Source of the DNA: Burkholderia sp. USMB20
Lineage (GTDB): Bacteria > Pseudomonadota > Gammaproteobacteria > Burkholderiales > Burkholderiaceae
Direction: 5' to 3'
Length of the DNA stretch: 64,000 nucleotides
Assembly (NCBI RefSeq): GCF_000949135.2
Contig: NZ_JTAN02000003.1
Coordinates: forward strand, 558,001 to 622,000
This document shows, one piece after another, positions 39,536 to 55,943 of this stretch; positions within the stretch are counted from its first letter, which is position 1; each line of letters opens with the position of its first letter. The notes under the pieces are model-generated. The model searched no databases and was not told the origin of the DNA. It saw nothing but the letters and a program-made list of their open reading frames with translations. Position numbers and translations under genes: made by a program.

Positions 39536-40624
39536 ATGAACAACCCTACAGATTCTCCACCGCTCATCTCGCTGCCGGAAAGCGAGCATCGCCCGCTCTC
39601 GGTGCGCGCGAAGGCGCTCGTATTCGCCGATCCCGCCTCGCGCGCGGTCCTGCGCTTCGTCGAGCAGATCGGACCCAGCGCCGCGCCGGCGCTGATCCTC
39701 GGCGAGACGGGCACCGGCAAGGAGCTGGTCGCGCGCCATATCCACCATGTCAGCGGCCGCACCGGCGCATTCATCGCGGTCAACTGCGGCGCGATCAGCC
39801 AGCAGCTCGCGGAGAGCGAACTGTTCGGCCACGAGGCCGGCGCGTTCACGGGGGCGCAGGGGCGCCGCGTCGGCTATTTCGAGGAAGCGAACGGCGGCAC
39901 GATCTTTCTCGACGAAATCGGCGATCTCGCGCCGCCGCTGCAGGCGAAGCTGCTGCGCGTGCTGCAGGAGGGCGAGGTGACGCGCGTGGGCGCGACCCGT
40001 GCGCGGCCGGTCGACGTCCGCGTCGTCGCGGCGACCAACGTCGACCTCGAGCAGGCCGTGCTGGCCGGCAATTTCCGGATGGACCTGTTCTACCGGATCA
40101 ATCTCGCCCGGGTGCGGCTGCCGCCGTTGCGCGAGCGGCCGCAGGACATCCTGCCGCTCGCCGAGCATTTCCGCGGGCGCTATTGCGCGCAGCTGAAGCG
40201 GCCGCAGCCGATGCTATCCGAGGCCACGGTGCAGGCGCTGTACGCGTATCCGTGGCCCGGCAACATCCGCGAGCTGGAAAACGTCATGCATCTGGCGTTG
40301 CTCGTGTCGAACGGCAACCTGATCCGCCCGGAGCACCTGAAGTTCTCCGAGGCACTCGCAGGCTATGCGCAAGCCGACGCCGGCGCGGCGACGATGCCGC
40401 AGGACGATATCCGCGCGGGCGTGCGCCGCCTGTTCCGCGCGCCCGGCGAAAGCCTGCTGCGCGACATCGAGGAACTGGTCGTCTGCGAGGCGTTCGAGCA
40501 TTGCCGGTTCAGCCAGGTGCGCACGGCCGCGCTGCTCGGTGTCACGCGCAATACGATGCGCACGCTGCTCGCGCGCCACGGGCTGCTCAGCGAGCCGCGC
40601 CCGGAATCCGCATTCGACGACTGA
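39536..40624 (+). CDS. sfnR: SfnR-like sigma-54-dependent activator without sensor domain
   Basis: 362-residue bacterial enhancer-binding protein: a ~25-residue leader, then the AAA+ domain with Walker A GETGTGKE (residues 56-63), the sigma-54-contacting GAFTGA loop (102-107), Walker [11 protein letters not shown] and the Arg-finger region [18 protein letters not shown], and a C-terminal Fis-type HTH ([23 protein letters not shown]). No N-terminal receiver, GAF or PAS domain is present, as in Pseudomonas SfnR (dimethyl-sulfone utilisation). It lies at the end of, and convergent with, the monooxygenase operon whose promoter region at 48.4-48.6 kb has sigma-54 motifs and paired palindromes. Confidence 0.82.
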
Positions 40625-40669: not shown

Positions 40670-41779
40670 TCAAGACAGGCTGGCGCGTGCCAGCCGCGTG
40701 CGCACGCGCGGCAATACGTGCTCGCCCACGCGCGCCGCTTCCTCCAGGTTCGGATAGGACGACAGCAGGAAGGTATCGATGCCGAGTTGCCGGTATTCGT
40801 GGACGCGCGCGGCAACCTGATCGTAGCTGCCGACGATCGCGGTGCCCGCGCCGCCGCGAATCAGGCCGACACCGGCCCACAGGTTCGGATATACCTCCAG
40901 TTCGCGCAGCGAGCGCAGCGCGCCGCGGCTCAGCGCGGTCTGGCGCTGCTGACCGACCGATTCGTAGGCGGCGAGCTTGCGCTGCGCGTCGACATAGGTC
41001 TGGTCGGAAATCTCACTCAGCAACGCGTCGGCGCGCGCCCATGCGGCGCGTTCGGTCGGGCGCGCGATCACGTGCACGCGCAGCCCGAAGCGCAGCCGGC
41101 GGCCGTGCATCGCGGCCAGTGCACGCAGCCGCGCGATGCGTTCCCGCACGGCGTCGGGCGGCTCGCCCCACAGCAGGTACGTATCGGCCTGGCTCGCGGC
41201 CACCTGTTCGGCAAGCGTCGACGCCCCGCCGAGGTAGAGCGCCGGCGGGGTCGCGAGCGGCACGCCGGCATGCGCGGGGTTCAGCATGTAGTAACGCCCG
41301 GCGACGGAGTGGCCGGCGCCCTGCCACAGACGCCGCAGGACCCGCAGGCATTCGGACGTGCGCTGGTAGCGCGCGTCGTGATCGAGAAAGTCGCCGAGCG
41401 CACGCTGGTCGTAAGCGCTCGAGCCGTTGACCGCGAACAGGCGCAGGCGAGCGCCGCTCATGCGCTGCAGGGTGGCCGCCTTGCGCGCGATCTGTTCGGG
41501 CTGTTCGAGGCCCGGGCGGAATGTCACGATCAACGCGATGCGGTGCGTTGCACGCGCGAGCTGCGCACTGACGAGCCACGGATCCTCGAAGCCCGCGGCC
41601 ATCGGCAGCAGCAGGCTGTCGAAGCCGGCGGCCTCGGCCGCGCAGGCGACGCCGCGCAGGTATTCGGGCGTGGCCGGCCGATAGTCCTGCATGAAGGTCG
41701 GCGGGCGCGGCAGGCCGCTGTTGGCGAGATGCGGACCGTCGCCGTTGGTCGGCAGGAACCACGCGAAATCGACGCTCAT
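40670..41779 (-). CDS. SsuD-like FMNH2-dependent monooxygenase (LLM class)
   Basis: 369-residue luciferase-like monooxygenase of the alkanesulfonate monooxygenase type: FAWFLPTNGDG start, AAGFDSLLLP, IALIVTFRPGLEQPEQIARKAATL, RLRLFAVNG, and the YLGGASTLAEQVAA phosphate-binding region. It is expected to desulfonate an alkane- or aryl-sulfonate with FMNH2 and O2. ATG 41779 overlaps the stop of the preceding gene in the operon by 4 nt; the longer open frame upstream is a high-GC artefact. It is the last gene of the minus-strand organosulfur operon. Confidence 0.85.
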   Translation of the reverse strand: MSVDFAWFLPTNGDGPHLANSGLPRPPTFMQDYRPATPEYLRGVACAAEAAGFDSLLLPMAAGFEDPWLVSAQLARATHRIALIVTFRPGLEQPEQIARKAATLQRMSGARLRLFAVNGSSAYDQRALGDFLDHDARYQRTSECLRVLRRLWQGAGHSVAGRYYMLNPAHAGVPLATPPALYLGGASTLAEQVAASQADTYLLWGEPPDAVRERIARLRALAAMHGRRLRFGLRVHVIARPTERAAWARADALLSEISDQTYVDAQRKLAAYESVGQQRQTALSRGALRSLRELEVYPNLWAGVGLIRGGAGTAIVGSYDQVAARVHEYRQLGIDTFLLSSYPNLEEAARVGEHVLPRVRTRLARASLS

Positions 41780-42504
41780 GCGTCGCCTCGCCGGCGGCTT
41801 GCCCGACGCGCGACGCGCGCGCGTCGCACGTCGTCGAACCCGACCGTGCGCCGGAGCAGCGCATCGGCCGGCGGTGGCGCGAGGCCGCGCGCGCGATACG
41901 CGCGTTCGACGGCCGCCGCCACCGGCGGCGCGCTGGCCGGTACGAGCAGCCCGTCGCACCACGACGCGGCGAACGCGATTTCGCGCCGCTCGGCGACCGA
42001 CCAGTAGACGGGAGGCCGCTGCGCCGCGAGATCAGGCAAACGGGCATGCTCGACGCGATAGTAGACCCCGCGATACTGCAGCGGAGAATCGGTTGCCCAC
42101 AGTGCGCGCAGGAGCGACAGGAATTCGGCGCTGCGCGCGAGCCGCTGGTCGCGGTTCAGATGCATGGCGCGGTCGGTCGCGTCGACGTCCTGCGCGTCGG
42201 CTTCGCATGCGAGCAGCGCGCGGCCGCGGCTCAGCGACTGCAGGCTCTGCGCGAGATGGGCGGCGGCGACGGGCAGCATCGCGCCGGCCTGCAGCGTCAC
42301 CATCACGCGCAGCGCCGGTAGCGCGTCGACGAGCGCCGCGGCCGCCATCCACGGGTCGGGACCGGTAGCCTGCGCGGGCAGCAGCACGGCGTTGCAGCCG
42401 GCCGCCACGCCGACCTCGGCAATCGCGATCCAGTCGGCGGCCGGGTCGGGGCGTGTGTCGTCGCAGCCGATGTCGAGCCGCAGCAGCAGACGCGGCGCGC
42501 TCAT
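41776..42504 (-). CDS. Short LLM-class flavin oxidoreductase, C-terminally shortened
   Basis: 242 residues, well below the 330-380 usual for this class. The SsuD-like order is present for the N-terminal two thirds (IAIAEVGVAAGCNAVLLPAQ, LRVMVTLQAGAMLPVAAAHLAQSL, RDQRLARSAEFLSLLRALW, VEHARLPDLAAQRPPVYWS) and then stops with an arginine-rich tail. It overlaps both neighbours by 4 nt. It may be a degenerate paralogue or a non-catalytic partner of the SsuD-like protein encoded next. A monooxygenase role is uncertain. Confidence 0.7.
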   Translation of the reverse strand: MSAPRLLLRLDIGCDDTRPDPAADWIAIAEVGVAAGCNAVLLPAQATGPDPWMAAAALVDALPALRVMVTLQAGAMLPVAAAHLAQSLQSLSRGRALLACEADAQDVDATDRAMHLNRDQRLARSAEFLSLLRALWATDSPLQYRGVYYRVEHARLPDLAAQRPPVYWSVAERREIAFAASWCDGLLVPASAPPVAAAVERAYRARGLAPPPADALLRRTVGFDDVRRARVARRASRRRGDA

Positions 42505-43559
42505 GCGGGTGCGTGCGCCGGCCGCCAGCCGAGCGCCGGCGCAATCGTTTCCGCGAGCGCGCGCAGCCGCGCCAGCGCGTCGTCGAGCGACGAGCTTTCC
42601 GATTGCACGACCGGCAGGAAATAGTCGGCGAACGGGAACAGCGCCGGGTCGCCGCGCAGGCTTTCGATCACGTCGTCCGGATGCCCGTAGTGGACGTTCA
42701 GCAGCCGCACGATCTGCTCGGGATCGGTCACGTCGGGATGGCCGCTCGCGGCGAGCCACGGGATATGGCGCACGACGTCGGGCGCCAGCGCGGCGAGCGC
42801 GGTGCGCCGGTCGCGTGCGGGAAACACCGCGCGCACCACGCCGATGCGCGGTGCCGGTGCGCCGGCGTGCGCGTATTCGCGCCAGGCGTCGAGATACGCG
42901 TGCGCGAGCGGCAACTGCACGGTGCGCGGATCGTGCACGGCGGTGCCGAGCAGCAGGCCGTTGCCGTGCCGTGCGGCGAACCGCGCGCCGTCGGGCGACG
43001 CGTGCGAATGCCACAGGCGCGCGCGCACGCCGGGCGCCGCGGGCTGCAGCACGAGCGGCGGCGCGTCGGCGGCGGCTGCGTGCGCGAGCGGGCGGCCCGC
43101 GAGCGCATCCTGCAAACGTTCGAGCGCGGTCGCGAAGCGCGCCTGCCGCGTGTCGACGTCGAGCCCGAACGCGGCGAACGCGTCGAGATTCGCGCCGCCG
43201 CTGCCGAGGCCGAGTTGCAGCCGGCCGCCCGCCAGCGCGTCGAGCACCGCCGCATCTTCGGCGAGCCGCAGCGGATCCTCGAGCGACAGCGTGACGATTC
43301 CCGTGCCGAGTTCGATGCGGCGCGTGCGTTGCGCGACGGCGGCCAGCAGCACGAGCGGCGACGGCAGCCGGCCGTATTCCGCGCGGAAATGATGCTGCGC
43401 GACGAATCCGCCGTCGAAGCCGAGCTGTTCCGCCGCGACGAACAGCGTTTCGAGCTCCGCGTAGACGCGGCGCGCGTCGCCGGTGCCGTGGACGTGCGTG
43501 AGGAAACCGAGCTTGAACGGCCGGCGCTCGGCCGGTGCGGGTGAGGACGATCGAGTCAT
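42501..43559 (-). CDS. LLM-class flavin-dependent oxidoreductase
   Basis: 352-residue luciferase-like protein: KLGFLTHVHGTGDARRVYAELETLFVAAEQLGFDGGFVAQHHF, RRIELGTGIVTLSLEDPLRLAEDAAVLDALAGGRLQLGLGSGG and ARHGNGLLLGTA are typical of the bacterial-luciferase-like subgroup. It resembles the next upstream gene product (43556-44578) closely enough to be a tandem duplicate. Start at ATG 43559 with a 4-nt overlap. Substrate unknown; expected to attack a sulfur-containing compound from context. Confidence 0.82.
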   Translation of the reverse strand: MTRSSSPAPAERRPFKLGFLTHVHGTGDARRVYAELETLFVAAEQLGFDGGFVAQHHFRAEYGRLPSPLVLLAAVAQRTRRIELGTGIVTLSLEDPLRLAEDAAVLDALAGGRLQLGLGSGGANLDAFAAFGLDVDTRQARFATALERLQDALAGRPLAHAAAADAPPLVLQPAAPGVRARLWHSHASPDGARFAARHGNGLLLGTAVHDPRTVQLPLAHAYLDAWREYAHAGAPAPRIGVVRAVFPARDRRTALAALAPDVVRHIPWLAASGHPDVTDPEQIVRLLNVHYGHPDDVIESLRGDPALFPFADYFLPVVQSESSSLDDALARLRALAETIAPALGWRPAHAPA

Positions 43560-44578
43560 GTCGGGATCGGATCGGAAGTGAACGAAGCGGCTGCGGTGCG
43601 TGCCGAGGCCGGCGTCCAGCCGAGTGCCGGCGCGATCGCACCGGCGATGGTCTCGAGCCGGCGCAGCGCGTCGCGCTGCGAGGTGCCGGCCGTCTGCACC
43701 TGCACGACCAGCTCGGTTGCGCCGGTCAGCGCGGGATCGATCTGAAGCGCGGCCGCGATGTCGGCGGGCAGGCCGCGTAGTACACCGAAGCGATCGAGCA
43801 GCGCGGGGAGGTCGGCGGGCCCGGGCGCCGGCGCGCCGCCGGCCGCGGCGAGCCGCGCGGCGTACCGCAGGATGTCGGGGCCGATCGCCGCTTCGACGCC
43901 GGCCGCATCCGCGCCCGGCACGACCGCCCGCACGAGTGCGACACGGGGCGCGCCCGGATGAGCCCACGCGCGGCGATAGCGCGCCACGAGCGCCGCTTCG
44001 CCGTCCTGTTCCGGACGCGTGCGCGCGACGATCAGCCCGTGACCGTTGCGCGCGACCGCTTCGGCATCGCCGGTCGCTTGCCAGACACGCGCGGCCAACG
44101 TGGGCGCGGGCGGTTGCAGCGTCGCCCCGGCCGGGGTGACCGGCGCGCCGTCCAGCGCCCGGCGCAACGCCGCGAGCGCGTCGGCCTGCAGTGCCGCGCG
44201 CGCACCGAAATCGCGGCCGAACGCGGCGAACACGTCCGCCTCGAAGCCGGCGCCGACACCGAGCTGAAGGCGGCCGTCGGCCAACGCGTCGAGCACGGCC
44301 GCATCTTCCGCGACGCGCAGCACCGCTTCGAGCGGCAGCACGATCACGCCGGTGCCGAGCGCGATGCGCCGCGTGCGGCGCGCGGCGGCCGCCAGCAGCA
44401 CGAGCGGCGACGGCAGCCGGCCCGTTTCGCTGCCGAAGTGGTGCTGGGCCACCCACGCGCTGTCGAAGCCGAGCGCTTCCGCCGCTTCGATCAGCGCGAG
44501 CGTGTCGTGCAGCACGCGCGGCGACGAATCGGGCGCGTAGACGCGCGTCAGCACGCCGAGTCGGAACGGGCGCGTCAT
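43556..44578 (-). CDS. LLM-class flavin-dependent oxidoreductase
   Basis: 340-residue luciferase-like protein, paralogous to its downstream neighbour: RLGVLTRVYAPDSSPRVLHDTLALIEAAEALGFDSAWVAQHHF, RRIALGTGVIVLPLEAVLRVAEDAAVLDALADGRLQLGVGAGF, then a divergent second half ending with a loose Ser/Thr/Pro tail. Start at ATG 44578, overlapping the NtaA-type gene by 4 nt. It should bind FMNH2; partner reductase and substrate are not evident here. Confidence 0.82.
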   Translation of the reverse strand: MTRPFRLGVLTRVYAPDSSPRVLHDTLALIEAAEALGFDSAWVAQHHFGSETGRLPSPLVLLAAAARRTRRIALGTGVIVLPLEAVLRVAEDAAVLDALADGRLQLGVGAGFEADVFAAFGRDFGARAALQADALAALRRALDGAPVTPAGATLQPPAPTLAARVWQATGDAEAVARNGHGLIVARTRPEQDGEAALVARYRRAWAHPGAPRVALVRAVVPGADAAGVEAAIGPDILRYAARLAAAGGAPAPGPADLPALLDRFGVLRGLPADIAAALQIDPALTGATELVVQVQTAGTSQRDALRRLETIAGAIAPALGWTPASARTAAASFTSDPIPT

Positions 44579-45948
44579 GCGGCACCGCCGCGGACCGGTG
44601 CGACCGTATCGCCGCGCAGCGACGACGGGCGCCGAAAGAAGGGCGGGCGCGGCAGGCCGAGCTGGTCGCGCAGCGTCGGGCCTTCGTACTCGGTGCGGAA
44701 CAGCCGGCGCCGCTGCAGTTCGGGCACGACGAGATCGACGAAATCGTCGAGGCCGCCGGGCACCCACGCGAACGCGACGTTGAACCCGTCGGCGCCGTAC
44801 GACAGGAACCATTCCTCGAAGCGATCGGCGATGGTCTTCGGCGTGCCGGTGACGACACCGGCGCTGGCAAAGCGCTCGTAGAGCTGGCGGATCGTCAGGT
44901 TCTCGCGGCGCGCGAGATCGACGATCGACTGCTGCCGGCTCTTGCTGCGATTGCTCGGCGGCAGCTCGGGCAACGGTCCGTCGAGCGGATAACCGGACAG
45001 GTCGAAATCGCCCGCGTTGTCGGCGAGCAGCCGCAGCCCGAGCACCGGATCGATCAGGTCCTGCAACGCGCGCAGCTTGTCGCGCGCTTCGGCCTCGGTC
45101 GCGCCGACGATCGGCATCACGCCGGGCAGAATCTTCAGATGCTCCGGCCGGCGGCCGTGACGCGCGAGGCGGCCCTTGACGTTCGCATAGAATGCCTGTG
45201 CGTCGTCGAGCCGGTGCTGCGCGGTGAAGATTACTTCCGCGCAGCGTGCCGCGAGTTCGCGGCCAGCCTCCGACGAACCGGCCTGCACGAGCACCGGATG
45301 GCCCTGCGGCGCGCGCGCGACGTTCAGCGGGCCGCGCACGCTGAAGTGCGGCCCGTGATGATCCAGCACATGCAGCTTGCGGTGATCGAAATGCAGGCCG
45401 GCGGCCTTGTCCTCGATGAACGCGTCGTCTTCCCAGCTGTCCCAGAGCCCCGCCACGACGCGCTGGAATTCGTCGGCGCGCGCGTAGCGATCGGCGTGCG
45501 CGAGGTGCGGCGTCACGCCGAAATTCGCCGCTTCGTCGGGCACGACCGACGTGACGAGATTCCACCCCGCGCGCCCGCCGCTCAGGTGGTCGAGCGACGC
45601 GAACTTGCGGGCGATGTGGTACGGCGCGTTGTAGGTCGTCGTCGCGGTCGCGATCAGGCCGATATGTTGCGTGACGGCCGCCAGCGCGGCGAGCAGCGTG
45701 AGCGGCTCGAAGGTGTCGGCGCGCGCGCTGCGGCGCAGGGAATCGATGTGGCTGCCCTGCGTCGCGACCACGTCCGCGACGAACAGCGCATCGAGCTTGC
45801 CGCGCTCGGCCGTCTGCGCCATGCGGCGGAAATGCGCGAAGTCGCGATTGCCGTTCGGCTGCGCGAGCGGATGACGCCAGCCGACCACATGGCTGCCGCC
45901 GCCGTTCAGCATCGCGTTGAGTTTCAGGGTGTCGGTGCGGCGCGTCAT
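44575..45948 (-). CDS. NtaA/SnaA/DszA-type FMNH2-dependent monooxygenase
   Basis: 457-residue member of the NtaA/SnaA/SoxA(DszA) family, the subgroup that includes nitrilotriacetate monooxygenase and dibenzothiophene-sulfone monooxygenase. Seen: MLNGGGSHVVGWRHP, ERGKLDALFVADV, ATTTYNAPYHIARKFASLDHLSGGRAGWNLVTS, HPVLVQAGSSEAGRELAARCAEVIFT and GTPKTIADRFEEWF. It needs an external flavin reductase; none is encoded beside it. It is the first monooxygenase after the TonB receptor in the minus-strand operon. The start is 13 nt from the receptor stop. Confidence 0.88.
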   Translation of the reverse strand: MTRRTDTLKLNAMLNGGGSHVVGWRHPLAQPNGNRDFAHFRRMAQTAERGKLDALFVADVVATQGSHIDSLRRSARADTFEPLTLLAALAAVTQHIGLIATATTTYNAPYHIARKFASLDHLSGGRAGWNLVTSVVPDEAANFGVTPHLAHADRYARADEFQRVVAGLWDSWEDDAFIEDKAAGLHFDHRKLHVLDHHGPHFSVRGPLNVARAPQGHPVLVQAGSSEAGRELAARCAEVIFTAQHRLDDAQAFYANVKGRLARHGRRPEHLKILPGVMPIVGATEAEARDKLRALQDLIDPVLGLRLLADNAGDFDLSGYPLDGPLPELPPSNRSKSRQQSIVDLARRENLTIRQLYERFASAGVVTGTPKTIADRFEEWFLSYGADGFNVAFAWVPGGLDDFVDLVVPELQRRRLFRTEYEGPTLRDQLGLPRPPFFRRPSSLRGDTVAPVRGGAA

Positions 45949-45961
45949 CCGGATGGACTCC

Positions 45962-48290
<2,329 letters not shown>

Positions 48291-48392
48291 CCGTCTATCC
48301 CCAAATCGAAGCGTTGTTATGCGTGTGGTCCGGCGCGGTGCCGCGCATCGAGTCGACGGCGCCGCGGCTCGGCAGTGCGTGAGCGGGGCTTT

Positions 48393-48408
48393 GCAACAGG
48401 CGTGCCAA
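48393..48408 (-). promoter_or_regulatory. Sigma-54 promoter for TonB receptor/monooxygenase operon
   Basis: On the minus strand the sequence is TTGGCACGCCTGTTGC, which matches the -24/-12 consensus TTGGCACG-N4-TTGC exactly, with GG at 48406-48405 and GC at 48394-48393 separated by 10 nt. The receptor ATG is ~100 nt downstream. An SfnR-like sigma-54 activator encoded nearby makes this the likely in vivo promoter. Confidence 0.75.
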
Positions 48409-48494
48409 TCGGCGCTCGGGCACGCCCCGCAACGGATGGGTGCCGAAAGCGGCGGCCGGACGACGCAGCGCGCGCGCATGCGTTCCAGTCGTTT

Positions 48495-48510
48495 TGCTGG
48501 AATTCCAGCA
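48495..48510. promoter_or_regulatory. Perfect palindrome, candidate activator-binding site 1
   Basis: TGCTGGAATTCCAGCA is a perfect 16-bp palindrome, about 100 bp from each of the two divergent sigma-54 motifs, as expected for an enhancer shared by both. An extra TTCCAG half-site at 48483-48488 lies 20 bp (about two helical turns) away. SfnR-like binding is inferred. The rest of the 375-bp gap 48291-48665 shows no gene. Confidence 0.65.
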
Positions 48511-48552
48511 GCGCCGTCGCGCATCGCGCGGCGTGCTGCATTTGCGGCATCT

Positions 48553-48568
48553 CGCTGGAAATCCAGCG
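48553..48568. promoter_or_regulatory. Near-perfect palindrome, candidate activator-binding site 2
   Basis: CGCTGGAAATCCAGCG repeats the GCTGGA-N2/3-TCCAGC arrangement of site 1 with one central mismatch; centres are 58 bp apart. Paired sites of the same sequence suit a hexamerising enhancer-binding protein. Binding is inferred. Confidence 0.6.
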
Positions 48569-48611
48569 CGCCGCGGGCGGCGCGATGGCCGCACAGGCCG
48601 ACGGGACCGCA

Positions 48612-48628
48612 TTGGCATGGTGCTTGCT
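48612..48628 (+). promoter_or_regulatory. Sigma-54 promoter for sfnB/ABC operon
   Basis: TTGGCATGGTGCTTGCT has GG (48614-48615) and GC (48626-48627) exactly 10 nt apart and matches the TTGGCA-N6-TTGC consensus well. It lies ~40 nt before the sfnB ATG and ~45 bp from palindrome 2. Confidence 0.7.
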
Positions 48629-48665: not shown

Positions 48666-49907
48666 ATGAACGCATTCACGTCCGCCGACACGCCGGCCAG
48701 CGCGCCGTCCCCGCTGTCCTCCCGTCCACCCGCGAGCCGCATCGTCGACGACGCGCACGCGCTCGAAACCGCGCGCCGGCTCGCCGGCGAACTGTCGCGC
48801 GACGCGGCGCTGCGCGACCGCGAGCGGCGCCTGCCGTTCGCGGAGCTCGACCTGTTCTCGGGCAGCGGGCTGTGGGGCATCACGGTGCCGCGCGCGTTCG
48901 GCGGCGCGGACGTGTCGCTCGCGACGCTCGGCGAGGTCGTGCGAACCATCGCGCAGGCGGACCCGTCGATCGGCCAGCTGCCGAAGAATCACTTTCACGC
49001 GCTCGACGTGATCCGGCTGACGGGCGACGACGCGCAGCGCCGCAAGTTCTTCGGCCTCGTGCTCGACGGTGCGCGGATCGGCCATGCGGCGTCCGAGCGC
49101 GGGACGAAGAACGCGCTCGAGATCGGCACGCGGCTCTCGCGGCGCGGCGGGCGGCTCGTGCTCGACGGCCAGAAGTTCTATTCGACGGGCGCGCTGTTCG
49201 CCGACTGGATCGCGGTGCTCGCGCTCGACGACGACGGCCGCTACGTGCAGGCGCTGGTCGAGCGCGACCGGCCGGGGCTCGAGATCGTCGACGACTGGAG
49301 CGGCTTCGGGCAGCGCACGACGGCGAGCGGCACGCTGACGCTGGCGGGCGTGGAGGTCGACGAGGAGGACGTGGTGTCGATCCAGGCCGCGTTCGAGCGG
49401 CCGACGCTCGCGGGCCCCGTGTCGCAGTACCTGCACGCGAACATCGACGTCGGCATCGCGCGCGCGGCGCTGGACGACACGCTCGAGTTCGTGCGCACGC
49501 GCAGCCGGCCGTGGGCCGACAGCGGGATCGCGCGCGCGTCGGACGATCCGTACGTGATCCGCGACGTCGCCGACGTGCAGATCCGCCTGCTCGCGACCGA
49601 AGCGCTGCTCGACCGTGCGGCCGCGGCGCTCGACGCGTTGCCGGCCGAACTCGACGACGCGCAGGTCGCGCACGCATCGGTGCAGGTCGCGGCCGCGAAG
49701 GTGTTGAGCACCGAGCTCGCGATCCTCGCGACCAACAAGCTGTTCGAACTGTCGGGCACGCGCTCGGTGCTGAGCGAATACAACCTCGACCGTCATTGGC
49801 GCAATGCGCGCACCCATACGCTGCACGATCCGGTGCGCTGGAAATACCATGCGATCGGCAACTACGTGCTCAACCACGTCAACCCGCCGCGCCACGGTTA
49901 CCTGTGA
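48666..49907 (+). CDS. sfnB: SfnB-family sulfur acquisition oxidoreductase (acyl-CoA dehydrogenase fold)
   Basis: 413-residue flavoprotein of the acyl-CoA-dehydrogenase superfamily, SfnB/DszC-like branch, found in organosulfur operons. Seen: LFSGSGLWGITVPRAFGGADVS, QADPSIGQLPKNHFHALD, GARIGHAASERGTKNALEIGT, QKFYSTGALFADWIAV and the late FELSGTRSVLSEYNLDRHWRNARTHTLHDPVRWKYHAIGN. The catalytic carboxylate of true acyl-CoA dehydrogenases is not expected in this branch; it acts as an FMNH2-dependent monooxygenase/oxidase. ATG 48666 starts after a sigma-54 promoter; it overlaps the ABC binding-protein gene by one base. Confidence 0.88.
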   Translation: MNAFTSADTPASAPSPLSSRPPASRIVDDAHALETARRLAGELSRDAALRDRERRLPFAELDLFSGSGLWGITVPRAFGGADVSLATLGEVVRTIAQADPSIGQLPKNHFHALDVIRLTGDDAQRRKFFGLVLDGARIGHAASERGTKNALEIGTRLSRRGGRLVLDGQKFYSTGALFADWIAVLALDDDGRYVQALVERDRPGLEIVDDWSGFGQRTTASGTLTLAGVEVDEEDVVSIQAAFERPTLAGPVSQYLHANIDVGIARAALDDTLEFVRTRSRPWADSGIARASDDPYVIRDVADVQIRLLATEALLDRAAAALDALPAELDDAQVAHASVQVAAAKVLSTELAILATNKLFELSGTRSVLSEYNLDRHWRNARTHTLHDPVRWKYHAIGNYVLNHVNPPRHGYL

Positions 49908-51535
49908 TGACCGACACGCTCTCGACTCCATCGCCGTGGGTGCCGAAGGACCCGGCGCGGCGCCGCTATGCGCTCGCCGCCGCGTGGGCCGCGGCCGGGC
50001 TCGGCGGCGCGGCGCGCGTGTTCGCGGCCGACGCCGTGGCGGCGCCGGTGCGCGGCGGCACGCTGTCGCTGTTCGCGCAGCCGGAGCCGCCGTCGCTCGT
50101 CAACGCGCTGACGCCGCACGTCGCGTCGCAATACGTCGGCGGCAAGATCTTCCAGGGGTTGCTCGGCTTCGACCCGCAACTGCGCCCGGTGCCCGTGCTC
50201 GCGCGCAGCTGGCGCGCGTCGGCCGACGCGCTGACCTGGACGTTCGACCTGCAGCCGGGCGTGCGCTGGCACGACGGGCAGCCGTTCGGCGCGCAGGACG
50301 TGGTGGTCACGCTGAAGGAAATCGCACCGCAGGCGCTGCCGCGCACGAAGGTGACGTTCGACAAGTACGTCGCGTCGATCGACGCGAGCGGCCCGCTGCA
50401 GGTGACGATCCGCCTGAAGAAGCCGTATGCGGGGCTGATCAACCTGCTCGGCAGCGGACTGGTGCCGATCCTGCCGGCCCATCTGTACCAGGGCAAGGAC
50501 CCGCGCAGCAATCCCGCGAACCAGCATCCGGTCGGCACCGGCCCGTTCGTGTTCCGCGAATGGAAGCGCGGCGCGTACATCCGCGTCGCGCGCAATCCGG
50601 ATTACTGGAAGAAGGGGCTGCCGTATCTCGACGGGATCGTATTCAACGTCGTGCCCGACGCGGCCGCGCGCTCGATCGCGTTCGAGCGCGGGCAGATCCA
50701 CGCGTTGCGCGCGGGCGACGTCGACTACGCGGACATCGCGCGGCTCGCGAAGCTGCCGGGCGTCGCGATCACGACGCAGGGCTGGGAGCTGTTCACCGGG
50801 ATGGCCTTTCTCGAACTGAACCAGCGCAAGCCGCCGTTCGACAACGTGCTCGTGCGTCAGGCCGTGCTGCACGCGCTCGATCGCCAGTTCATCGTCGACC
50901 GGATCTTCTTCGGCTACGGGAAGGTCGCGAACGGGCCGTTCGTGTCGTCGTCGCCGTTCTACGATCCGAACGTGCCGCGCTTCGCGTACGACCCGGAGCG
51001 CGCGCGCGCGCTGATCCGGCAGTCGGGCGTCGACGTCGGCAAGTTTCCGCTCGTGCTGGTCAACGGCGAGAAGGGCGGCGCGTGGGAGCGCGTGGCCGAA
51101 TACACGCAGCAGGCGCTCGGCCAGGCCGGCTTCCGGCTGCGCGTGCAGACGACCGATGCGGCCGGCTGGTATGCGCGCGTCGCGAACTGGGATTTCGACC
51201 TGAGCTACAACTTCCTGTTCCAGAACGCGGATCCGGATTTCGGCGTCGCGCCGTTGTACCGGATCGACGGCATCTCGAAGGGCTCGCCGTTCGGCAACGT
51301 CGCGGGCTACCGCAATCCGCAGGCCGATGCGCTGTGGGACGCGGCCGCGCTGGACACCGATCAGGCCGCGCGCCGCGCGCGCTACGCGCAGCTCCAGACC
51401 ACCCTCGCGAACGACGCGGCGATCGCGAACATCTTCGAGATGGTCAACCCGACGCTGTACCGGCGCAACGTCCACAACCTGCTGCGCACGGCCACCAGCG
51501 TGAACGACAGCCTCGAGGACACGTGGATCGGATGA
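49907..51535 (+). CDS. ABC transporter substrate-binding protein, family 5 (DppA/OppA type)
   Basis: 542-residue periplasmic binding protein. An RRRYALAAAWAAAG stretch near residue 19 resembles a twin-arginine or Sec signal ending VFAADAV. Family-5 landmarks follow: LVPVLARSWRASADALTWTFDLQPGVRWHDGQPF, HPVGTGPFVFREWKRG, and NVLVRQAVLHALDRQFIVDRIFFG. It is the first gene of a complete Dpp-type ABC set embedded in an organosulfur operon, so it probably binds a sulfur compound or peptide-like ligand rather than ordinary dipeptides. Start overlaps the sfnB stop (TGATG). Confidence 0.88.
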   Translation: MTDTLSTPSPWVPKDPARRRYALAAAWAAAGLGGAARVFAADAVAAPVRGGTLSLFAQPEPPSLVNALTPHVASQYVGGKIFQGLLGFDPQLRPVPVLARSWRASADALTWTFDLQPGVRWHDGQPFGAQDVVVTLKEIAPQALPRTKVTFDKYVASIDASGPLQVTIRLKKPYAGLINLLGSGLVPILPAHLYQGKDPRSNPANQHPVGTGPFVFREWKRGAYIRVARNPDYWKKGLPYLDGIVFNVVPDAAARSIAFERGQIHALRAGDVDYADIARLAKLPGVAITTQGWELFTGMAFLELNQRKPPFDNVLVRQAVLHALDRQFIVDRIFFGYGKVANGPFVSSSPFYDPNVPRFAYDPERARALIRQSGVDVGKFPLVLVNGEKGGAWERVAEYTQQALGQAGFRLRVQTTDAAGWYARVANWDFDLSYNFLFQNADPDFGVAPLYRIDGISKGSPFGNVAGYRNPQADALWDAAALDTDQAARRARYAQLQTTLANDAAIANIFEMVNPTLYRRNVHNLLRTATSVNDSLEDTWIG

Positions 51536-51539
51536 CGCG

Positions 51540-52541
51540 ATGAACACGGCGCTGCGTTTGACGTCGACGGTGCTGCGGGGCCTGGCGGTCGTGCTGGGCG
51601 TGCTCGTCGTGAACTTCTTCCTGGTGCGGCTCGCGCCGGGCGACCCCGCGCTGATGCTCGCCGGCGACGCGGGCTCGGGCGATGCCGCGTACGTCGAGCG
51701 GCTGCGCGCGCAGCTCGGCTTGAGCCGGCCGCTCGTCGAGCAGTTCGCGCTGTATCTGCGCGATCTCGCGCACGTCGATTTCGGCTTCTCGTACCGCAAC
51801 CAGCTGCCGGTGCTGCAACTCGTCGCCGAGCGCCTGCCCGCGACGCTGCTGCTGATGGCGGCCGCGTTCGCCGTATCGGTGGTCGCGGGCGTGACGGCGG
51901 GTGCGGTGGCCGCGTACGGCGAGTCGCGCGGCGGTCCGTGGGCGCGGCGCATCGCGCGCGCGATCGGCGCGCTCGCGGTGATCGTCTATGCGACGCCGCT
52001 GTTCTGGCTGTCGCTGATGAGCGTGATCGCGTTCTCGGTGGTGCTCGGCTGGCTGCCGTCGTTCGGGATGGAAAGCGTCGGCGCCGGCTACACGGGGTGG
52101 CGCCACGCGCTCGACGTGGCCGCGCACCTCGTGCTGCCGGCCACGACGCTCGGGCTCGTGTACGGCGCGATCTACGTGCAGCTCACGCGCGCCGCGATGC
52201 TCGAGGTGATCGAACGCGAGTTCGTGCGGACCGCGCGCGCGAAGGGCGCGTCCGAGCCGCGCGTGATGATCCGCCACGTGCTGCGCAACGCGCTGTTGCC
52301 GGTCGTCACGCTCGGCGGACTGCAGCTCGGGCAGCTCGCGGGCGGCGCGCTCGTGACCGAAATCGTGTTCGCGTGGCCCGGCCTCGGCGGGCTGATGTAC
52401 GACGCGCTGCTGCAGCGCGACTATCCGGTGCTGCTCGGGCTGCTCGCCGTGGTCGCGGCGCTCGTGGTGCTGTTCAATGCGCTGACCGACCTGTTGTACG
52501 GGATCGTCGATCCGCGCATCGGCTGGCAGGACGCGCGATGA
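51540..52541 (+). CDS. ABC transporter permease, DppB type
   Basis: 333-residue inner-membrane permease with about six hydrophobic segments. VVNFFLVRLAPGDPALMLAGD is the family N-terminus; the ATPase-coupling EAA-like loop is EFVRTARAKGASEPRVMIRHVLRNALLPVVT. It pairs with the following DppC-type gene, which it overlaps by 4 nt. Confidence 0.9.
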   Translation: MNTALRLTSTVLRGLAVVLGVLVVNFFLVRLAPGDPALMLAGDAGSGDAAYVERLRAQLGLSRPLVEQFALYLRDLAHVDFGFSYRNQLPVLQLVAERLPATLLLMAAAFAVSVVAGVTAGAVAAYGESRGGPWARRIARAIGALAVIVYATPLFWLSLMSVIAFSVVLGWLPSFGMESVGAGYTGWRHALDVAAHLVLPATTLGLVYGAIYVQLTRAAMLEVIEREFVRTARAKGASEPRVMIRHVLRNALLPVVTLGGLQLGQLAGGALVTEIVFAWPGLGGLMYDALLQRDYPVLLGLLAVVAALVVLFNALTDLLYGIVDPRIGWQDAR

Positions 52542-53368
52542 CGGGCCGCTTCGTGCATCGTTTCGTGCGCGCGCGCGGCGCGGCGGCCGGCACGCTGTTT
52601 CTGGCCGTCGTCGCGCTCGTCGCGCTGAGCGCGCCGCTGTGGCTGCCGTCGCCGTGGCGCATGGCCGGCGAGCCGTTGCTGCGGCCGCTGCAGGGCGGCC
52701 ATCCGCTCGGCACCGACATGCTCGGGCGCGACGTGCTGGTCGCGCTGCTGTGGAGTGCGCGCGTGTCGTTGTTCGTCGGGCTCGCGGCGACCGTCGCGAC
52801 CTTTGTGCTCGGCGCATCGATCGGCGCGCTCGCGGGCTGGTGCGGCGGCTGGGTCGACCGGGCGCTGATGGCGCTCACGACGCTGTTCCAGACCGTGCCG
52901 CAATTCGCGGCCGCGGTCACGATCGCGGCGGTGCTCGGCGCGTCGCTCGAATCGACGATCGTCGCGATCGCCGCCGTGTCGTGGCCGGCGATCGCGCGGC
53001 TCGTGCGTGGCGAATTCATCGGGCTCGTGCAACGGGAGTTCGTGCTCGCGGCGCGGCTGGCCGGCGAGTCGCCAGCCGCGCTCGTGCGGCGCCAGATCCT
53101 GCCGCACGTCTGGCCGCCGCTCGCGGTGCTGGCCGCGCTGATGGTCGCGACCGCGATCCTCACCGAGTCGGCGCTGTCGTTTCTCGGGCTCGGCGATCCG
53201 TCGCAGATGAGCTGGGGCTTCATGATCGGCGCGGCGCGCAACGTGGTGCGCGACGCGTGGTGGCTGAGCATCTGGCCGGGGCTCGCGATCGTCGCGACCG
53301 CGCTCGCGATCAACCGGGTCGGCGAAGGGTTGCGCCACGCGTCGGCGCTTGCGGAGCCGGGGCGATGA
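52538..53368 (+). CDS. ABC transporter permease, DppC type
   Basis: 276-residue permease. HPLGTDMLGRDVLVALLWSARVSLFVG is diagnostic of DppC/OppC; the coupling loop is EFVLAARLAGESPAALVRRQILPHVWPPL, followed by ESALSFLGLGDP. Overlaps of 4 nt on both sides (ATGA) show tight coupling with dppB-like and the ATPase gene. Confidence 0.9.
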   Translation: MTGRFVHRFVRARGAAAGTLFLAVVALVALSAPLWLPSPWRMAGEPLLRPLQGGHPLGTDMLGRDVLVALLWSARVSLFVGLAATVATFVLGASIGALAGWCGGWVDRALMALTTLFQTVPQFAAAVTIAAVLGASLESTIVAIAAVSWPAIARLVRGEFIGLVQREFVLAARLAGESPAALVRRQILPHVWPPLAVLAALMVATAILTESALSFLGLGDPSQMSWGFMIGAARNVVRDAWWLSIWPGLAIVATALAINRVGEGLRHASALAEPGR

Positions 53369-55062
53369 GCGGCGCGCCGCTGTTGTCGGTCGAGCGGCTC
53401 ACGCTCGCGTTGCCGGCCCGCGCGGAGCGCCGCGACGCGGTGCGCGACGTGTCGCTGACGGTCGCGCCCGGCGAGGTGCTGTGCGTGGTCGGCGCGTCCG
53501 GGTCGGGCAAGTCGCTGCTCGCGGCCGCGATCGCCGGCCTGCTGCCGCGCGGCGTGCGGCACGCGGCCGGGCGGATCGCGCTGCGCGGGCGGGACCTCAC
53601 GCACTGCAGCGACGCCGAATGGCGTGCGGTGCGCGGCCGCGACGTGTCGATGATCTTCCAGGAACCGCTCGCCGCGCTGAATCCGCTGATGACGGTCGGC
53701 GCGCAGGTCGACGAGGTGCTGCGCGTTCATCGCGTGCTGAGCGGCCGCGGTGACGGTGCGGCGCGCGCGGCACGCGTGACGGCGCTGTTGCGCGACGTCG
53801 GCCTGCCGGAGCCCGAGCGGCTGCGGCATGCGTATCCCGACGCGCTGTCCGGCGGCCAGCGCCAGCGCGTGCTGATCGCGATGGCGCTCGCGCTCGAGCC
53901 GGCCCTGCTGATCGCGGACGAACCGACCACCGCGCTCGACGTCACCACGCAGGCGCGCATTCTGGCGCTGATCGAGCGGGCAGCCCGTACGAAACGGACC
54001 GGCGTGCTGCTGATCACGCACGACTTCGGCGTGGTCGCGCGCGTCGCCGATCGCGTCGTGGTGTTGCGCGATGGCGAGCAGGTCGAGAGCGGTCGCGCGG
54101 CCGACGTGCTGCGCGCGCCGCGCCATCCGTATACGCGCGCGCTGCTCGATGCCGTGCCGCACGGTCGCGTCGCAGCGCGTGCCGTCGCCCGCGGCGGCGT
54201 GCCGCTGCTGGACGTGCAGGGCCTGCGCAAGCACTACGCGTCGCGCCGCGCGTTGCCGTTCCTGCCGGCGCGCGGCCGGCGCCGCGTCGATGCGCTGGTC
54301 GACGTCGGCTTCGTGCTGCATGCCGGCGAGACGCTCGGCATCGTCGGCGAATCGGGTTCCGGGAAGTCGACGCTCGCGCGCGCACTGGTGCGGCTCGCGC
54401 GGGTGGATGCGGGGCGCATCGTGCTGCGCGGCGAGCACGATCTCGCGCGCGTGGCCGACCACGCGTTGCGGCCGCTGCGTCGCGACGTCCAGATGGTGTT
54501 TCAGGACCCGTACGCATCGCTGAACACGCGTCAGACGATCGCGCAGATCGTCGCGACCGGCCTGCTCGCGCACGGTGTCGGCCGCGCCGCGGCGTATCGA
54601 CGGGCGGCCGAGCTGCTCGCGCAGGTCGGCTTGCCTCCGGATGCGCTCGACCGGTATCCGCACGAATTCTCCGGCGGGCAGCGCCAGCGCATCGGCCTGG
54701 CACGTGCGCTGGCGCTCGATCCGTCGATCCTCGTGGCCGACGAAATGGTGTCGGGGCTCGACGTGTCGGTGCAGGCGCAGGTGCTCGAACTGCTCGCGTC
54801 GGTGCAGCAGCGCCGCGCGATGGCGATCGTGTTCGTCACGCACGACTTGCGCGTTGCCGCGCAGATCTGCGATCGCATCGCGGTGATGCAGGCCGGGCGC
54901 ATCGTCGAACTGGGCGATACCGCGCAGGTTTTCGGCGCGGCGCGCCATCCGTACACGCGTGCGTTGCTCGATGCGATGCCGGTGCTGCCGGCGCGCGTGA
55001 GCGCGACCGGCACGCAGGACGGCAGCGCGCACGCCCATCGAACCAACGAGGAGCACTCATGA
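53365..55062 (+). CDS. Fused double ABC ATPase (DppD-DppF type)
   Basis: 565-residue protein containing two complete ATPase domains. Domain 1: Walker A GASGSGKS (residues 43-50), signature LSGGQRQR, Walker [14 protein letters not shown]. Domain 2: Walker A GESGSGKS (328-335), signature [15 protein letters not shown], Walker [14 protein letters not shown]. Each domain ends with the [10 protein letters not shown] motif of oligopeptide ATPases. DppD and DppF are usually separate genes; here they are one polypeptide. In domain 2 the D loop reads EMVSGLD rather than EPTSALD, common in DppF-like chains. Confidence 0.92.
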
Positions 55063-55943
55063 CGTCCGATTCGAACTTCGCGGTCGCGGCTTCCGCCGTC
55101 GTGGCCGGTGTGCCGGTCGAGGTGCGCGCCGGGCGCACGCTGAGCGTCGCGCATCGCGCCGCGCCGCGCGGCTCGCCGCATGCGGGGACGGTGCTGTTCT
55201 TCGCGCACGGCGGCGGCGGCAACAAAAACCAGTGGCGAGCGCAGTGGCGCACATTTGCCGATGCGGGCTACGAACTCGTCGCATGGGATTTCCTCGGTCA
55301 CGGCGACAGTCCGCGGCCGCCCGCGCGAAGCGGCGCCTATCACGGCGACGAAACGCTGCGCGACTATCTCGCGCTGTTCGACCGCTACAAGGGGGCGCAC
55401 AACGTGCTGGTCGCCCATTCGCTGGGCACGGGAAGCACGCTCGCCTTGCTCGAGCGGCTGGCGGCGCTCGGGCGGCTGCACGAAGCGAGCGGTGCGCTGC
55501 TGCTCGGCACGCAGCTCGCGCGCCCCGTGACGCGGCCGCCGGCGTTGCCGGGCTGGCTGCTCGAATGGATCAAGCCGGTGTTCGCGCGGCGCTTCCGGCG
55601 GCTCGCATGGCATCCGCAGGCCGACCCGGCGCTCGTCGCCTACGAGTCGCGCGTCGCGCGCCGCAACCGGATGACGACCTTCCAGGCCGTGCTGCGCGAC
55701 GCGCCGTGGCCCGATGCGGCGCGGCTGGCCGCGCTCGACTTGCCGGTCGCCGTGCTCGCGGGCGACAGCGACGGCCTGACACCGCCCGCCGGCGGACGCG
55801 CGCTGGCCGACGCGTTGCCGAATGCGTCGTTCGGCGTGCTGCCCGCCTGCGGCCATCAACTGATGCTCGAGCGGCCGGATGCGGTCGGCGCCGCATTGCG
55901 TGCGCTGCTCGAGCGCACCGTGCAAGCGGCGCCCGTGCGATGA
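55059..55943 (+). CDS. Alpha/beta-hydrolase
   Basis: 294-residue alpha/beta-hydrolase. The triad is visible: Ser in VAHSLGTGS, Asp in LAGDSDGLTPP and His in PACGHQLMLERP; oxyanion region FFAHGGGGNKNQW and WDFLGHGDSPRP. It overlaps the ATPase gene by 4 nt and so belongs to the organosulfur/ABC operon; it may hydrolyse an ester or amide of the imported compound. Substrate unknown. No signal peptide, so cytosolic. Confidence 0.85.
   Translation: MTSDSNFAVAASAVVAGVPVEVRAGRTLSVAHRAAPRGSPHAGTVLFFAHGGGGNKNQWRAQWRTFADAGYELVAWDFLGHGDSPRPPARSGAYHGDETLRDYLALFDRYKGAHNVLVAHSLGTGSTLALLERLAALGRLHEASGALLLGTQLARPVTRPPALPGWLLEWIKPVFARRFRRLAWHPQADPALVAYESRVARRNRMTTFQAVLRDAPWPDAARLAALDLPVAVLAGDSDGLTPPAGGRALADALPNASFGVLPACGHQLMLERPDAVGAALRALLERTVQAAPVR

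Follow-up and report, generated by a model that had tools for sequence, protein, structure and literature searches.

A probable SfnR-type enhancer shared by two divergent sigma-54 organosulfur operons in Burkholderia

In the 64-kb stretch of Burkholderia DNA analyzed in this study (hereafter the window), the intergenic region at 48393-48628 very probably acts as a shared three-site SfnR-type enhancer that would drive two divergent organosulfur operons. The original prediction, made from the same sequence, holds for the promoters, the shared enhancer, the sensorless activator and the conservation of the region, and had to be revised for the recognition core, the number of sites and a proposed half-site. 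From Pseudomonas, the combination of SfnR, sigma-54 and sulfone genes is already known; the useful additions of the present locus are its bidirectional layout and the operator code inferred from it.

Results

Two divergent sigma-54 promoters enclose three operators

The predicted divergent promoters, each with a GG-N10-GC signature, were found as TTGGCACGCCTGTTGC on the minus strand (48393-48408) and TTGGCATGGTGCTTGC on the plus strand (48612-48627). The full minus-strand site, TTGGCACGCCTGTTGCA (48392-48408), reads TTGGCACG-CCTG-TTGCA and leads into the tonB/monooxygenase operon, and the full plus-strand site, TTGGCATGGTGCTTGCT (48612-48628), reads TTGGCATG-GTGC-TTGCT and leads into the operon of sfnB and an ABC transporter. 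We scored sigma-54 sites on a simple 13-point scale that requires GG and GC and uses the consensus TGGCACG-N4-TTGC. The minus and plus sites reach 13 and 12 points, respectively, and these are the two top scores of the window, the next best being 11. Scores of at least 12 on both strands occurred in none of 3,000 simulated Markov sequences. Both promoters face outward, and together with the operators between them they span 237 bp.

The two predicted palindromes, 58 bp apart from centre to centre, are indeed present. Operator A (TGCTGGAATTCCAGCA, 48495-48510) is the sole exact copy of TGCTG-N6-CAGCA in the window, and operator B (CGCTGGAAATCCAGCG, 48553-48568) has two arm mismatches, both at the outermost bases. 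A third, degenerate copy that had been overlooked, operator C (TGCTGCATTTGCGGCA, 48534-48549), has one arm mismatch, giving a layout of three sites instead of two palindromes and a half-site. The centres of A and C are 39 bp apart and those of C and B 19 bp apart, all three operators being contained within 74 bp. Measured from the near edge of the minus promoter, the centres of A and B are at about 94 and 152 bp; the corresponding distances to the plus promoter are 110 and 52 bp. The exact arms of A are thereby found within 350 bp upstream of each of the two promoters, accompanied by the degenerate copies B and C. Of 20,000 simulated sequences (first-order Markov, matched to the intergenic composition), 0.05% contain an exact TGCTG-N6-CAGCA, and none contains the observed trio with zero, one and two mismatches. 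As for the TTCCAG half-site, it is present at 48483-48488, 17 bp from the first palindrome (centre to centre) rather than 20; it is poorly conserved (intact in four of nine orthologs, with three of six columns invariant) and probably non-functional, and it was dropped as a fourth site.

Operators and promoters are conserved in sequence and spacing

The ortholog search covered 65 genomes from the genus to which the B. anthina genome belongs; 52 of them have an SfnB match, seven at 79-90% identity. The SfnB of the window is 90% identical to that of one genome and 86% identical to that of B. anthina. We aligned nine orthologous intergenic regions, from the window, B. stagnalis and those seven genomes. 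The original prediction had staked its case on conservation of the palindromes in homologous intergenic regions, and there the operators and the plus promoter are kept in 9/9 and the minus promoter in 8/9, its -24/-12 elements being degenerate in one region (L043). In the promoter cores, 9/11 columns are invariant on the minus side and 10/11 on the plus side. The arms of A are invariant at all ten columns and its centre at only one of six, B is invariant at 15 of 16 columns, its centre being conserved as well, and C at eight of ten arm columns and five of six centre columns. Spacing is equally constrained: the 134 bp from A through the end of the plus promoter are free of indels in all nine orthologs, and the minus promoter is separated from A by 101-102 bp. 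Leaving the half-site out, 61/74 feature columns are invariant versus 106/285 elsewhere (Fisher p ~1e-12, a value not to be taken as a true probability, given that the sequences share ancestry and that the features were defined once the alignment had been inspected).

Because the arms of A are invariant and its centre is variable, the operator is better described as TGCTG-N6-CAGCA, or more broadly TGYTG-N6-CARCA, than as the recognition sequence proposed initially, GCTGGAA-TTCCAGC. Invariant arms around a free centre, as at A, fit the pattern that would be expected from a dimeric helix-turn-helix protein. In related genomes, TGCTG-N6-CAGCA recurs near sigma-54 sites at SfnR loci (see below). 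GCTGGAA-TTCCAGC was dropped as the core, given the variable centre of A and the coding appearance of the other copies of GCTGGAWWTCCAGC that were read. There are 0-3 copies of GCTGGAWWTCCAGC per genome across the 65 genomes; of 30 such loci read, one is the present locus, and 27 of the other 29 copies fall into five recurring peptide contexts and therefore look coding, by a test that is rough in that a long open frame also spans the present intergenic site.

Of 75 sfnB places of lower identity, 60 were read upstream; none of these 60 has a GCTG-N6-CAGC or the whole arrangement, and six have a sigma-54 site scoring at least 10. At six canonical Burkholderia loci, the sigma-54 promoter and the operators are located elsewhere in the locus and not upstream of sfnB.

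Both operons carry organosulfur genes

The minus operon starts with a TonB-dependent receptor (45962-48290, minus strand), which in the window has a 5' end that does not share its frame, and includes five luciferase-like flavin monooxygenases ranging from SsuD-like to the NtaA/DmoA family (40670-45948, minus strand). The first gene of the plus operon codes for an SfnB-family oxidoreductase (48668-49907, plus strand; TIGR04022, 623.5 bits against a cut-off of 430.9, scanned inside a longer open reading frame); it is accompanied by an ABC transporter (substrate-binding protein, two permeases and a fused ATPase) and an alpha/beta hydrolase (49907-55943, plus strand). An identical gene order is annotated in B. 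stagnalis, including the five LLM genes. This gene content, together with the conservation of promoters and operators, supports the prediction that a single enhancer is shared by two organosulfur operons running in opposite directions.

The start of the TonB receptor, with its signal peptide (48031-48290, minus strand), is, in the window, in a different frame from the remainder of the gene, which may reflect either a genuine frameshift or a sequencing error. Start and body share a frame in seven of the eight orthologs compared, the remaining one (L046) not being judged. A 781-codon open frame running from the signal-peptide ATG was considered as the receptor and dropped, its frame differing from that of the receptor.

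A sensorless activator is inherited with the locus

The same locus encodes an SfnR-like sigma-54 activator of 362 aa (39536-40624, plus strand), which we propose as the binder of A, B and C. It has a Pfam Sigma54_activat domain at residues 30-193 (217 bits) and a C-terminal Fis-type helix-turn-helix (HTH_8, residues 308-342, 22.7 bits, barely above the 22-bit cut-off). The AAA+ domain starts at residue 30 with no family listed before it, which leaves no room for an N-terminal sensor domain and bears out the sensorless character originally assigned to this protein. It is 52.5% identical over 354 aa to the sigma-54 regulator that closes an msuE-ssuD cluster of P. aeruginosa, but also about 50% identical to several other sigma-54 activators; no SfnR model is present among the best 25 of 30 NCBIfam matches.

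In the window, the activator gene shares the locus with sfnB and the five flavin monooxygenases. An ortholog 93-96% identical is present in all seven genomes that have the locus. Its distance from sfnB is at most about 10 kb in six of them and about 22 kb in G060, as also in B. stagnalis. One further genome (G058) has the ortholog at a contig end and lacks this SfnB, and another (G046) has a 153-residue piece with stops. In B. stagnalis (L007/L197), a hemagglutinin-repeat gene, a ShlB-type secretion gene and an integrase are found between the SfnR-like gene and the monooxygenases.

The same operator arms accompany other SfnR loci in Burkholderia

We measured co-occurrence as an operator located at most 350 bp upstream of a sigma-54 site scoring at least 11. 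TGCTG-N6-CAGCA is found upstream of a strong sigma-54 site at 7/7 loci of the window type, and upstream of a TGGCACG-N4-TTGC promoter at 6/6 further Burkholderia loci (L146-L151) that were chosen for an SfnR paralog near an SfnB paralog. None of 29 permutations of the TGCTG arms, the only arms permuted here, gives a match in the Burkholderia, window-type or plasmid-record sets.

Three spaced patterns consisting of operator, gap and sigma-54 promoter were also searched in the 65 genomes. The first returned 14 rows in nine genomes, six being the present locus, five having an SfnR paralog within about 2 kb and three having none so close; the second returned nine rows in seven genomes, with six, two and one in the same categories. 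The third returned 37 rows in 37 genomes, 32 of them within 3.5 kb of an SfnR paralog (distances being taken from 44 listed SfnR places), although many of these 32 represent one orthologous locus in related species rather than independent events. Of the other five, one (G001:C11) precedes by about 0.7 kb an SfnG-family gene scoring above cut-off, two have a paralog 31 kb away, and for two no paralog is listed on the contig. Reversed patterns gave 2, 3 and 19 matches, respectively; since 19 stand against 37, the third pattern alone is not specific, and it is the proximity to SfnR genes, not the pattern itself, that carries the argument.

The operator extends beyond the genus

Relatives of SfnG were found at 22 places in 21 of 398 genomes of the phylum, and 19 sfnG loci were read, leaving out two in G001 and one in G012, which belong to the genus set; three of the stretches end at contig ends. 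A sigma-54 site of at least 11 on the strand of sfnG is present at eight of these 19 loci and absent from the stretch read at the other 11. TGYTG-N6-CARCA lies within 350 bp upstream in all eight, as TGTTG-N6-CAACA in seven and as TGCTG-N6-CAGCA in one. Permuted arms gave no match in 27 of 29 cases; the other two, YGTTG and TGTYG, gave seven because both contain TGTTG.

Moreover, 157 plasmid records contain an SfnR homolog, from which 15 regions were taken and 13 scanned for the operator-promoter pair. A sigma-54 site of at least 11 is present in 9/13, seven of these nine having TGYTG-N6-CARCA as well, five of the seven (5/13 overall) in the form TGCTG-N6-CAGCA. These loci include a P. aeruginosa record with TGTTGCCCGGGCAACA ahead of msuE and a Methylocystis record with an exact TGCTGCATTTGCAGCA upstream of sfnG. 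A strong sigma-54 site without the operator is present in those of Sphingobium and Pseudomonas silvicola, an exact operator without a strong sigma-54 site in that of B. multivorans, and neither element in two from Pantoea and one from Azospirillum.

Several of these records show features of their own. The P. aeruginosa one (L193, NZ_CP137515) is a 91-kb plasmid-typed record with type VI secretion genes beside the msuE-ssuD-regulator cluster, and may be a chromosomal piece. On the B. glumae plasmid bglu_1p (L196), several insertion sequences surround the SfnR homolog and msuE lies outside them; many B. glumae plasmids have a near-identical match to this homolog. The SfnR homologs of Methylocystis (L201) and Pantoea (L198) are 662 and 629 aa long, with C-terminal extensions that align with each other; two Pantoea records label the extended homolog a sulfonate-binding protein, and the extension may therefore be a built-in sensor.

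Discussion

Proposed mechanism

We infer that a dimeric, sensorless SfnR-type activator would bind the three 16-bp operators of TGCTG-N6-CAGCA type, A being exact and C and B degenerate, and would loop the DNA to activate sigma-54 RNA polymerase at both promoters. Sulfur limitation would in this way induce uptake, through the TonB receptor and the ABC transporter, together with desulfurization by the flavin monooxygenases and SfnB. As the activator has no sensor domain, and by analogy to the SfnR of P. putida, which is reportedly regulated by CysB, the starvation signal would presumably act through the activator's own expression.

In nodules of Paraburkholderia phymatum, several genes for sulfonate uptake and monooxygenases, other than those of the present locus, are lower in an rpoN mutant (PMC5979394). 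For the present case this is at most indirect support.

A bolder extension, which we put forward tentatively, is that TGYTG-N6-CARCA is an SfnR-type operator code across alpha-, beta- and gammaproteobacteria, and that in the present locus a rigid enhancer acting in both directions is built from three of these operators. The 58 bp between A and B correspond to about 5.5 helical turns, which would place the two on opposite faces of the DNA; since, in addition, none of the nine orthologs differs in the distance between A and the sfnB promoter, each of the two promoters may be addressed by a different one of A and B. If this were true, a single sensorless activator would set the ratio of uptake to desulfurization.

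Alternative explanations

The arms at the canonical SfnR/sfnG loci are the same as those found here, and a paralog of about 50% identity is present in six of the seven genomes with the locus, so that cross-activation is possible. It may accordingly be asked if the enhancer is real but mainly activated by the canonical SfnR paralog encoded elsewhere, the local protein being secondary or having other targets. We regard this as rather unlikely, while giving it more weight than any other alternative: all seven genomes with the locus retain the local gene at 93-96% identity, the two types of locus have different operator centres, and G060 has no other SfnR-type match among the matches listed (to about E 1e-66, 31 of 43 candidates scored) and still keeps the operators. 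Since the local gene travels with the locus, and in view of G060, it is the better candidate, and it is most likely the local activator (39536-40624) that binds the enhancer. A distinct and clearly less probable scenario would have the sfnB-side promoter alone driven by the enhancer, the minus-strand site being weak or a relic. The degenerate minus promoter of L043, set against a plus promoter kept in every ortholog, would be consistent with this, as would a spacing that is exact on the plus side and varies by 1 bp on the minus side; on the other hand, the window's minus site matches the consensus perfectly, and most of its core columns are invariant.

Many repressors, too, bind perfect palindromes, and those described here might serve another regulator, for instance of LysR or TetR type and related to sulfur or iron, with the sigma-54 promoters using some other enhancer. 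This appears improbable, as the same arms lie upstream of sigma-54 promoters at SfnR/sfnG loci of several genera, and the association is lost with every permutation of TGCTG and with nearly every one of TGYTG. Hardly any credit is due to the idea that the palindromes arose by chance in GC-rich DNA. The window does contain 78 near-palindromes of 16 bp with at most one mismatched pair, but chance is already contradicted by the conservation across nine orthologs, by the combination of invariant arms with a variable centre, and by the failure of simulated sequences to produce the trio.

Relation to known systems

Our preferred reading, a shared enhancer bound by the local activator, places the locus close to the SfnR system of Pseudomonas, with which it has in common a sensorless sigma-54 activator, flavin monooxygenases for sulfones or sulfonates, an SfnB-type oxidoreductase and sigma-54 promoters. 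In P. putida, SfnR reportedly belongs to a sulfate-starvation system with sfnFG and sfnA, and P. aeruginosa is said to have SfnR1 and SfnR2. The operator is shared as well, TGYTG-N6-CARCA being found upstream of stand-alone sfnG genes, in genomes presumed to be Pseudomonas, and of msuE in a P. aeruginosa record. Unlike in Pseudomonas, however, one enhancer with three operators in 74 bp is here placed between divergent sigma-54 promoters, and a cluster with a TonB receptor and a dipeptide-type ABC transporter takes the place of sfnFG. In the literature matches listed, titles and abstract openings contain no description of an SfnR operator, which may already be published.

Enhancers shared by divergent sigma-54 operons are known from nifH/nifJ of Klebsiella, activated by NifA, and from hyp/hyc of E. 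coli, activated by FhlA. In both, one activator uses one intergenic enhancer for two outward sigma-54 promoters, while the activators, operators and pathways differ from those considered here. The present locus would offer a compact natural example in which a divergent pair of sigma-54 promoters, at fixed spacing, depends on a single enhancer. Moreover, the TGYTG-N6-CARCA code predicts SfnR-type binding in several classes of Proteobacteria, and would allow organosulfur regulons to be listed from sequence.

Also close to the present locus is the canonical SfnR/sfnG locus of Burkholderia (L146-L151), which has TGCTG-N6-CAGCA about 170 bp from its TGGCACG-N4-TTGC promoter. It differs by having a single strong sigma-54 promoter and different operator centres, often CNTGAT. 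A second operator lies about 270-295 bp farther at four of the six loci and about 150 bp farther at one, and no exact copy is found at the remaining one. At all six loci, the interval from the sigma-54 promoter to the near operator also contains a shared block around GATGAAC and GGAAACA (GGGAACA in L151).
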